Part shown: positions 6,270-8,280 of the stretch, one piece after another
Position numbering within the stretch: the first letter of the stretch is position 1
How the letters are laid out: each line of letters starts with the position of its first letter
Source: Chloroflexota bacterium
GTDB lineage: Bacteria; Chloroflexota; Anaerolineae; UBA4142
Reading direction: 5' to 3'
NCBI GenBank assembly: GCA_016219275.1
Contig: JACRBM010000015.1
Coordinates: forward strand, 1-56,363
Length of the DNA: 56,363 nucleotides
Made by a program: the position numbers and the translations under genes
Notes under the pieces: generated by a model
Databases searched by the model: none
Seen by the model: the letters and a program-made list of their open reading frames with translations, nothing else
What the model was told of the DNA's origin: nothing

Positions 6270-6344
6270 AATGATTGTGGCTAGTAGACTGACTATTTGA
6301 TCTTGTCCCGCGAATCAAGTTGCGGCTAAAGCACGTTCAGGTCT

Positions 6345-6423
6345 TGTCATTTCGAGGCACGCTTTTTGTGCCGAGAAATCTCTCCTTGGTCGCGCGAGAT
6401 TTCTCGCTTCGCTCGAAATGACA
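6345..6423. repeat. Foldback repeat with TGTCATTTCGAG ends
   Basis: The ends TGTCATTTCGAG (6345-6356) and CTCGAAATGACA (6412-6423) are a perfect 12-bp inverted repeat, with further internal pairing (GAGAAATC/GATTTCTC). It belongs to the same family as the copy at 6457-6550, which differs by one base in the ends. Confidence 0.85.
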
Positions 6424-6456
6424 ACTGGATAGAATTAAATGGTCAAACCACTAGTT

Positions 6457-6550
6457 TGTCATTGCGAGGCGCGGTTTTTTGCACCGAAGCCGCGAAGCGC
6501 CCGATTCGCTGATTGGGGATTGCTTCGCCGCTTCGCGGCTCGCAATGACA
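6457..6550. repeat. Foldback repeat with TGTCATTGCGAG ends
   Basis: TGTCATTGCGAG (6457-6468) pairs perfectly with CTCGCAATGACA (6539-6550). The inside carries CCGCGAAGCG/CGCTTCGCGG-type pairing. A shortened relative lies at 21592-21621. The family resembles the widely dispersed CATTGCGAGCGAAGCG repeats seen in many bacterial genomes. Confidence 0.85.
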
Positions 6551-6578
6551 CTTGTGGGTAATCACCGGACCGGGGGGA

Positions 6579-6608
6579 TTGACAAATCTTGGAGCAAGTG
6601 AGTAAAAT
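6579..6608 (+). promoter_or_regulatory. Promoter TTGACA-N18-TAAAAT
   Basis: TTGACA at 6579-6584 and TAAAAT at 6603-6608 are 18 bp apart. It points at the flavoprotein gene at 6823. The MITE-like element lies between this promoter and the start codon, so the transcript would carry a ~200-nt structured leader. Confidence 0.65.
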
Positions 6609-6691
6609 TTACTCGCTCTGGGAATGGGCAAGCGTGTGATGCGTTTTCGCTGTGGAAGCGCATCACGCGTTTGATATTTTGCAAAGCCAGG

Positions 6692-6811
6692 GTACCTGCT
6701 CAACCTTGCGAAGGTTTGCAGGCACAATTCTCTTGGAAGCGAATTTGCTGTCGTCGCTCAATTCCTCAGAAAAGTGTCTAGTACCTTCGCAAGGATGGGC
6801 TGAGTAGATAC
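6692..6811. mobile_element. MITE-like element, copy 1, with 8-bp target duplication
   Basis: The 120-bp element has ends GTACCTGCTCAACC (6692-6705) and GGCTGAGTAGATAC (6798-6811), related inverted repeats with a few mismatches. The pairing extends inward through CCTTGCGAAGG (6704-6714) and CCTTCGCAAGG (6784-6794), which are exact complements. It is flanked by AAGCCAGG at 6684-6691 and 6812-6819, an exact 8-bp direct repeat. No ORF is present. The right duplication supplies the weak AGG ribosome site of the gene starting at 6823. Confidence 0.85.
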
Positions 6812-6822
6812 AAGCCAGGTCA

Positions 6823-8280
6823 ATGGAAACGCAGTTCGATGTGATGGTGATTGGCGGCGGTCCCGCTGGGGTTACTGCCGCATTGCGCGCGAGCGAACTG
6901 GGCATGCGCGTCGCGCTCGTCGAGCGCGCACAGTTGGGCGGCACCTGCACGAACGATGGTTGTGTGCCGACGCGCGTGCTCGCCAAAGCCGCGCGCTTGG
7001 TGCGCGAGTCCAAACACTTTGCCGATTATGGTCTGCTGGGCGGCGCAACCCAGGTCGCGTGGGGCACATTGTTGGCGCGCGCCCAACAAACGGTGTATCG
7101 CATTCACGAAAAGAAACAACTCGCGGCGCACATCGCGAATGTCGGTGGACGCGTGTTCGAGAATGTCGGCGATGTGCGCTTTGTGGACGCGCACACGCTT
7201 GCGTTTGCAAATGGCGATGCTTTGCGCGCGGACAAGTTTATCGTCTGCGCCGGCGGACACACGCGGCGACTTGATATTCCTGGCATCGAGTATTGTCTGA
7301 CGCATCGCGATATTTGGTCGCTCAAGCAGTTGCCTGCATCGGTGATCGTGATCGGCGGCGGCGGAACAGGCGCGCAAGTCGCATCAATTCTCGACGCGTT
7401 TGGCGTGCGCGTGTCGCTCGTTTCGCGCGGGCGCATCGTCGAGACGGAAGACGCGAGTGTGTCCAAGTGTGTCCACGAAGCATTCACGCGACGCGGGCTG
7501 AACGTCATCACGGCGATGCAAGCCATCGAACGCATCGAGAAACGCGCCGATGGTTTCACCGTGGAGTATCGGTGCGAGTCTGGGATCGAAGCGGTGCACG
7601 CGGACGTGGTGATGCTCGCGGCGGGCTGGGAAGCGAATGTCGCCGCGATGAATCTCGACGCGGCGGGCGTGAAAACAGAACGCGGCTATATCGCGGTGAA
7701 TGATTTTCAGCAGACCTCTGCGCCGCACATTTTCGCGGCGGGCGATATTACCGGGCGCATGATGCTTGTCCAGAGCGCGGGCTATGAGGGTCGTCTGGCG
7801 GCGGAGAACGCGGTGCTGGGTGTGGGACAACCGTACAAACATCTCATCGTACCGCACGGCGGCTTTACTGATCCCGAGTACGCCGGGGTCGGTCTCACCG
7901 AAGCGCAGGCGCGCGCCAAACATGATGTCGTCGTCAGCATGGTGCCGTACTCCGATTTGGATCGCGCGGTGATTGACGATCACGCGTACGGATTTTTCAA
8001 GTTGATCGTCTCGCGCGAGACGCATCGCGTCCTGGGCGCGCACGTCGTCGGCGAGCAGGCGCTCGAAGTGATTCAACTCGTCGCGGCGGCGATGGCGGCG
8101 GAAACCTGGGTCGAGCAAATCGCGGAACTCGAACTCGCGTATCCGACGTTCACCGCGATTGTTGGGCTTGCCGCGCGCCAAGCGTCGGCGGAACTGGGCG
8201 TCGTGCCGCTCGCGCCGCAGTGGCGCGGCTTGTCGCAACTAGGCGCGCGGCTGGCGGAATGGGAGCGCTCGGATCAATGA
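6823..8280 (+). CDS. Mercuric reductase/lipoamide dehydrogenase-like FAD oxidoreductase
   Basis: 485 aa, class I pyridine nucleotide-disulfide oxidoreductase. The FAD motif VIGGGPAGVTAA is at 9-20, the redox disulfide CTNDGC at 42-47, the NAD(P) motif VIGGGGTGAQVAS near 173-185 and the FAD site IFAAGDIT near 305; a C-terminal dimerisation domain follows. The family oxidises or reduces small disulfides or metals with NAD(P)H in the cytoplasm. The C-terminal HPT..E dyad of true lipoamide dehydrogenase is replaced by YPTFTA, as in MerA-type enzymes. The MerA C-terminal Cys pair and N-terminal HMA domain are absent, so neither substrate can be assigned. Its stop overlaps the next start by ATGA, which couples it to the sensor cluster. 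Confidence 0.88.
   Translation: METQFDVMVIGGGPAGVTAALRASELGMRVALVERAQLGGTCTNDGCVPTRVLAKAARLVRESKHFADYGLLGGATQVAWGTLLARAQQTVYRIHEKKQLAAHIANVGGRVFENVGDVRFVDAHTLAFANGDALRADKFIVCAGGHTRRLDIPGIEYCLTHRDIWSLKQLPASVIVIGGGGTGAQVASILDAFGVRVSLVSRGRIVETEDASVSKCVHEAFTRRGLNVITAMQAIERIEKRADGFTVEYRCESGIEAVHADVVMLAAGWEANVAAMNLDAAGVKTERGYIAVNDFQQTSAPHIFAAGDITGRMMLVQSAGYEGRLAAENAVLGVGQPYKHLIVPHGGFTDPEYAGVGLTEAQARAKHDVVVSMVPYSDLDRAVIDDHAYGFFKLIVSRETHRVLGAHVVGEQALEVIQLVAAAMAAETWVEQIAELELAYPTFTAIVGLAARQASAELGVVPLAPQWRGLSQLGARLAEWERSDQ

Follow-up and report, generated by a model that had tools for sequence, protein, structure and literature searches.

The locus and its element

The stretch of DNA considered here (56,363 nucleotides; contig JACRBM010000015.1 of assembly GCA_016219275.1, a Chloroflexota bacterium of the Anaerolineae), the whole of which is called the window below, carries a 120-bp element directly ahead of the start codon of a disulphide oxidoreductase gene (Table 1). 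The element has inverted ends and lies between two exact copies of the octamer AAGCCAGG. Two mobile systems meet in it: with IS66-like tips, an 8-bp duplication and no coding capacity it is an insertion of the type of the insertion sequence (IS) family IS66, and its arms are those of a palindrome family which elsewhere stands alone and brackets Y1 transposase genes resembling repetitive extragenic palindrome (REP)-associated tyrosine transposases (RAYTs). We consider it likely that the element as a whole is an IS66-type non-autonomous insertion which carries a RAYT-associated palindrome akin to the REPINs (REP doublets forming hairpins).

Table 1. Features of the element and its surroundings (positions in the window)
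Feature	Position	Strand	Remark
Left copy of 8-bp target duplication, AAGCCAGG	6684..6691	none	
Non-autonomous element, family A, 120 bp	6692..6811	+	
Left tip, GTACCTGCTCA	6692..6702	+	1 mismatch against IS66 tip GTAACTGCTCA
Left arm, CCTTGCGAAGG, REP-like half	6704..6714	+	
Right arm	6784..6794	-	reads CCTTGCGAAGG on the minus strand, CCTTCGCAAGG on the plus strand
Right tip, GTATCTACTCA	6801..6811	-	2 mismatches against GTAACTGCTCA; GCC next inward
Right copy of 8-bp target duplication	6812..6819	none	contains weak AGG ribosome-site-like bases
Downstream gene, FAD/NAD-linked disulphide oxidoreductase, 485 aa	6823..8280	+	Pyr_redox_2 plus dimerisation domain
Sigma-70-like promoter match, TTGACA-18-TAAAAT	6579..6608	+	consensus match only
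Terminator-like hairpin, 20 pairs	6629..6673	+	between promoter-like site and element

Short, non-coding, multicopy and with inverted ends, the element has the properties of a miniature inverted-repeat transposable element (MITE), and the exact AAGCCAGG flanks bear out the original prediction of a MITE-like element that duplicated 8 bp of its target on inserting just before the ATG. It is also an inverted REP doublet able to form a hairpin, as a REPIN is. Complementarity between the inverted arms (6698-6715 and 6783-6800) is 89% over 18 nt, with an interior of ~70 bp between the CCTTGCGAAGG(TT) arms, and the fold predicted for the element as a single strand (-48.8 kcal/mol, z -5.3) was equalled by 0 of 200 shuffles. 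That the arms might either fold alone or pair, as had been proposed, holds as far as the letters go, while in the predicted minimum-energy fold the two CCTTGCGAAGG arms pair with each other. An Rfam RNA family was dropped as the identity of the element, there being no Rfam match within the window.

Copies of the element and their target duplications

BLAST found 87 matching pieces dispersed through the home genome (6.16 Mb, 107 contigs), and 39 places were retrieved with their flanks. Duplications were counted in 34 copies, namely the window's own, 32 of the 39 retrieved and L077; those left out were L035, L037, L039, L040, L045 and L047, where only one end matched, and L043, a bare short hairpin. 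Both cores are present in 33 of the 34, L029 having no left core. Of these 33, 7 have an exact 8-bp duplication and 10 one with a single mismatch; 0.09 and 1.09 are expected from mispaired controls, in which the flanks of different copies were combined and searched at the same offsets. Thus 17 of the 33 are duplicated at 0-1 mismatch where ~1.2 are expected, and the target duplication of fixed length that is typical of MITEs is found across copies, as the original prediction had anticipated.

Alignment of 19 copies of the long class leaves 24 invariant columns, 16 of them in the two arms. Shorter forms of the family resemble internal deletions, and one of ~49 bp (L111, C9:7333) retains an exact 8-bp duplication. 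Short hairpins of the home genome taken as a group have no excess of duplications: among 22, one is exact and one has a single mismatch, where 0.15 and 2.11 are expected. At another site (L036, C33:118413-118645) a family A copy has inside it an apparently nested, unrelated stretch of the CGCGAATAACGCGAATG.. / TTCGCGGAT type.

Two results bear on insertion in relatives. The 6823 protein has, at E <= 1e-40, only distant matches in same-family genomes (11 of 13 genomes, 28-33% identity). A leader kept before orthologues in distant relatives had been named as the finding that would speak against a mobile element, and no sequence resembling 6560-6830 occurs at those 13 same-family loci. In addition, G012, a genome of another genus, holds a 113-bp relative of the element (span 92 between the arms) flanked by TTGGATTC and TTGTATTC, and its congener G006 reads uninterrupted as TTCTATTT before the same gene, which is the empty site of the G012 relative. 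This was judged by eye from the sequences, automatic alignment being poor, and the site is read from G006 alone because the upstream region of G013 is not alignable. The empty site that had been predicted is thus found for a relative in another genus, not for the copy in the window. In G007 and G012 together, 8-bp repeats are exact at 2 and have one mismatch at 6 of 19 hairpin elements, where the control gives 0.15 and 1.93.

IS66 as the candidate mobiliser

Two transposase families, IS66 (PF03050) and Y1 (PF01797), were looked for in the home genome. The PF03050 search gave one match, in an IS66 element of 1,432 bp with GTAACTGCTCAC at both ends and an exact TAACTGCC on each side. Its tips, of the GTAACTGCTCA type, match those of the 120-bp element over 11 bp, and hence the full-length resident IS with the same tips that the original prediction had called for exists in the same genome. 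The tips recur at IS66 loci of sister genomes, where GTAACTGCTCAGGCA stands at both ends of L360 and GTTACTACTCAGCC at both ends of L359; the GCC inward of the right tip of the element is found likewise in GTTACTACTCAGCC. Exact 8-bp flanks were seen at L358 and L371, IS66 loci with differing tips. IS66 matches occurred in 7 of the 17 genomes searched. Fifteen IS66 loci were examined and none has the CCTTGCGAAGG arms in exact form; the IS66-type right end, searched as a pattern of 27 letters, had no match in the named genomes.

A MITE of another DDE transposase that makes 8-bp duplications, with the IS66-like tips coincidental, is an improbable alternative. It could draw on the shortness of the shared sequence (11 bp only), on the variable tips and on the lack of an IS66 match in G012. 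Against it, several same-family genomes have the tip motif at their IS66 loci, and CTACTCAGCC at such loci matches the right tip of the MITE.

The arms as an independent palindrome

The arms are found far beyond the element. In the home genome CCTTGCGAAGGTT has 342 matches at one mismatch or fewer, against 14 for the reversed pattern; a shorter 11-mer has 90, against 23 reversed, in an 807-kb sample of that genome, and some single arms are chance matches because of the 23 that the reversed control gives. Inverted pairs (34) account for 68 of the 90 and are spread over several unrelated repeat families, with spacings that cluster near 18-25, 45-48 and 79-81 and a single pair spaced by 185. Arm sites of all families in the same sample (n=47, crude gene calls) lie in genes (9), between tandem (19), divergent (11) or convergent (5) genes, or at edges (3). 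A second repeat family (C40 281556, the end of C16, C24 8915, C88 21984 and others) has spacing 45, flanks GTCAAAATTTTGGAACACTCAA / TTTTTTCACCACCCAAAAACTT, and CCTTGCGAAGG arms without IS66 tips.

Among relatives the palindrome is patchy: the exact 15-mer AACCTTGCGAAGGTT is present in 23 of 199 genomes (152 matches in the home genome, 62 in G007 and 42 in G012, with 2 control matches in total) and has zero matches in the other 176. At L335, L343 and L345 (G012, G007) the interior between the arms is another repeat-like stretch, of the CCTGAGCGGAGTCGAAGGA type, and the units look modular.

Standing alone, the palindrome is a symmetric hairpin of 33-34 bp, A-N-CCTTGCGAAGGTT-N3/4-AACCTTCGCAAGG-N'-T. 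A pattern scan of named genomes found at least 112 contig stretches with such bare hairpins, in genomes whose titles place them in seven phyla or more. By title, the 80 matches listed include Chloroflexota (35), KSB1 (12), Ignavibacteria (7), Bacteroidota (5), Cloacimonadota (5), Marinimicrobia (5), Poribacteria (4), Caldithrix/Calditrichaeota (4), a planctomycete (1) and the FCB group (1); these genomes are draft bins from metagenomes, where an individual contig may be misplaced, and the phylum counts are not a census. In 81 hairpins position -2 is A in 76 and position -1 is paired with its partner in 61 (30 expected by independence), with no conservation beyond position -2. The GTAG- or CGTC-type tag found at the foot of REPINs is absent, and A-N stands there opposite N'-T.

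By crude gene calls, 19 of the 81 hairpins lie inside called genes, some of these probably through misplaced gene starts, and 9 at edges. Convergent genes flank 17 of the other 53, compared with 39 convergent gaps out of 273 in the same loci; tandem genes flank 33, and for 18 of those the upstream stop is no more than 20 bp away. Several other explanations of the bare hairpin were dropped. It has no conserved T-run adjoining it, as an intrinsic terminator would; the only neighbours recurring in four or more loci are alpha-amylase-domain, sensor-kinase and glycosyltransferase proteins; and carriage by phages or plasmids has no backing from viral contigs (no exact pattern match), from a phage search (a single 24-base match, E 0.9) or from a plasmid search with one 47-base query (no match). 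A fixed target duplication was likewise given up, since repeats of 5-7 bp are only slightly in excess and vary in position, against a control that mixes genomes of different composition. Searches of the literature for the motif strings gave no publication on bacterial repeats, as judged by titles and the start of abstracts. At L190, L215 and, less clearly, L179 (KSB1 KLAP87) a bare hairpin is central in a larger inverted repeat, an apparent capture; that of L190 is AAACTGAGCGATTG..CAATCGCTCAATTT.

RAYT-like genes bracketed by the hairpin

When 115 hairpin loci were searched in translation with Y1 proteins, 9 matched. In 6 of these (L174, L177, L204, L275, L278 and L279) a hairpin lies next to the open frame, either no more than ~20 bp from where the frame ends or across its upstream extension; in L254, L265 and L274 the distance is 0.6 kb or more. 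Hairpins stand on both sides in L177 (Ignavibacteria), L275 (KSB1), L278 (Cloacimonadota) and L279 (Bacteroidetes; its second hairpin has a 22-nt interior), and on one side only in L174 and L204. Adjacency is a weak test here because the loci were chosen by their hairpin. A better one is given by 30 Y1 loci from 17 genomes retrieved by Pfam without regard to hairpins, and ranked with a profile of the RAYT clade built from five proteins of hairpin loci only. L305 (243 bits), L296 (240) and L306 (183) rank first and all others score 50 bits or less; hairpin pairs occur only at L305 (both sides) and L296 (one side, mismatched arms). The third-ranked L306 has no hairpin pair, and four other loci of the 30 have a single arm at one mismatch or fewer. 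In L177, L275, L278, L279 and L305 a RAYT-like gene is thus flanked by the same palindrome, as is expected of a REPIN and its cognate RAYT.

The hairpin-linked proteins score 20.6-42.4 bits against PF01797 (Y1_Tnp), 5 of 6 above the cut-off of 23, and 57.2-73.7 bits against NF047646 (REP-associated tyrosine transposase), 0 of 5 above the cut-off of 80. They have the motifs NHYH and GTLF(Q/E)G. In the seven that reach the Y motif, it reads YIHLNP in four (L204, L275, L296, L305), YLHLNP in L177, YIHYNP in L278 and YIHCNP in L279; FQ is found in L204, L275 and L279, and FE in the other four. By motif, not by tree, they appear nearest to RAYT subclass 2.1 as set out in excerpts of PMC6006769. Seven loci have two or more exact hairpins and three of these enclose a RAYT; none was found between the hairpins of L251, L267, L274 and L281. 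In L251 a short open frame, presumably a GIY-YIG nuclease by its motif, lies between exact hairpins spaced 465 bp apart (1488-1923).

In the home genome, no hairpin-linked RAYT was found by a Pfam search of the whole genome, and none of its clade by a profile search of 1.09 Mb of home-genome loci (overlaps counted). The sole Y1 gene detected there (L293, C40:90181-90528) has GGACGCT..AAGCGTCC palindromes on its flanks, which appear to be a REP of its own, and the closest CCTTGCGAAGG arms lie ~9 kb off. G007 and G082 have the motif and no PF01797 match. A link with RAYTs had been dismissed on the basis of these three genomes, a view overturned by the divergent RAYT clade bracketed by hairpins elsewhere.

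Comparison with known systems

The comparisons in this section draw on excerpts of the papers cited. An IS66-type MITE as such is ordinary, and the arms are the unexpected part. MITEAba12 and ISAba12 (PMC6382973) offer a close parallel: ~110-120 bp, many copies, a fixed-length target duplication, and terminal inverted repeats that the resident IS also has, with identity confined to the ends. They differ in having 16-bp repeats and 9-bp duplications, whereas the element has IS66-type tips, 8 bp, and REP-like arms of another system. The PF03050 transposase of the resident element, tips beginning GTA and 8-bp duplications agree with the IS66 family; the element itself differs in lacking a transposase, and its tips are of the GTAACTGCTCA type, not the GTAAGCG type of ISPsko1 (PMC12888890), which occurs in L358.

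REPINs are usually described alongside their own RAYT (PMC3116915, PMC6006769). With the REPIN/RAYT system (PMC3116915, PMC3733652) the present palindrome shares inverted palindromic doublets that form a hairpin, a dispersed and mostly intergenic placement, and hairpins flanking a Y1 transposase gene. It differs in lacking a GTAG or CGTC tag, in its symmetric unit and in being near-identical across many phyla. Y1 genes flanked by other inverted repeats have also been described (PMC3733652, PMC6006769), as have moderately repeated families of such inverted repeats, some self-complementary (PMC3733652). Of 26 earlier examples of such TIRYTs (terminal inverted repeat-associated tyrosine transposases), 20 fall in subclass 2.1, near whose genes automatic and manual searches gave no REP-like sequences (PMC6006769). 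Motifs of that subclass are NHVH or NH[YF]H, FQ or W[EQ], and YIELNP or Y[IV]HLNP (PMC6006769). The hairpin-linked genes resemble TIRYTs and subclass 2.1 (PMC3733652, PMC6006769) in lying between inverted repeats other than GTAG REPs, and in NHYH and, partly, GTLFQG and YIHLNP; they differ in being bracketed by a dispersed hairpin of another sequence.

Origin of the element

No hairpin-linked RAYT was detected in the home genome, and therefore the palindrome appears to have been captured between IS66 tips. To judge from the tips, the length of the duplication and their co-residence, an IS66-family transposase most likely moved the element in trans. Elsewhere the hairpin-linked RAYT presumably spreads the palindrome; taken up between IS66 tips, it would then have been spread by a different, DDE-type transposase, one copy coming to rest directly ahead of the oxidoreductase start codon. 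A hairpin that gained IS66 tips is the economical order of events, and the reverse, with bare hairpins derived from the MITE, is less likely because the bare hairpin spans phyla. Going further, CCTTGCGAAGGTT-N3/4-AACCTTCGCAAGG may be the REP of a RAYT lineage near a subclass reported to lack REPs, which crossed at least seven phyla and was re-mobilised through IS66 tips (HUH to DDE) where the RAYT is lacking; we put this forward tentatively and think it rather doubtful in full. If true, REPIN-like hairpins can move horizontally and change mobiliser, and the hairpin (ANCCTTGCGAAGGTT) provides a defined sequence for probing recognition by hairpin-flanked RAYTs of the L275 / L305 type.

Several observations weigh against an IS66-borne, RAYT-associated palindrome. 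Nearly half of the copies (16 of 33) have no duplication at 0-1 mismatch, the tips vary among copies more than the arms do, and the overlap with the resident IS66 is the 11-bp tip only, with 1 mismatch on the left and 2 on the right. A scan found no 8-bp flanking repeat at the IS66 ends of L359 and L360. G012 gave no match in the IS66 transposase search yet has duplicated copies, and a lost or different transposase is possible there for that reason. Bare hairpins have no fixed target duplication. The stem covaries only weakly (2 of 24 pairs), and 6 matched double changes, from 5 loci, were counted where ~0.7 are expected (217 pairs). Lastly, the absence of a hairpin-linked RAYT from the home genome is that of one Pfam search, which could miss a weak member, and of the profile search.

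That the element is a plain REPIN, moved by a RAYT only and with incidental 8-bp flanking repeats, is a shade less credible than another DDE transposase and already disfavoured. Two inverted near-palindromic arms ~80 bp apart are what REPINs have (PMC3116915, in excerpt), the same arms form the hairpins that flank RAYT-like genes, and the arms are better conserved than the tips; the duplications are, however, far above control, the G012 relative has an 8-bp duplication and a matching empty site in G006, and the sole Y1 gene of the home genome has a different palindrome, with the nearest CCTTGCGAAGG arms distant from it. A reading of the element as an immobile functional RNA, a leader or attenuator for the oxidoreductase gene, would suit the stable predicted fold and the 5' leader position; it is highly improbable given the dispersed copies, their target duplications, the lack of an Rfam match in the window and the arm-bearing sites within called genes or between convergent ones.

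Gene context

The promoter-like site ahead of the element agrees with the consensus at 11 of 12 positions (mean 0.5 per shuffle). Of the "good promoter" of the original prediction the consensus match stands; that it drives the gene and its leader has less backing, because the strong terminator-like hairpin at 6629-6673 intervenes. This hairpin has no second copy in the 807-kb sample. The insertion leaves the last 11 bases ahead of the ATG at 6823 unaltered, and the leader is what changes: a transcript crossing the element is predicted to carry a stable stem-loop leader, and any regulatory effect of the element on the gene is hypothetical. Two more dispersed palindromic repeats lie in the same intergenic gap, at ~6340-6425 (TCATTTCGAGGC..) and 6456-6552 (TCATTGCGAGGC..), with 14 and 13 BLAST rows respectively (query included) in the 807-kb sample.
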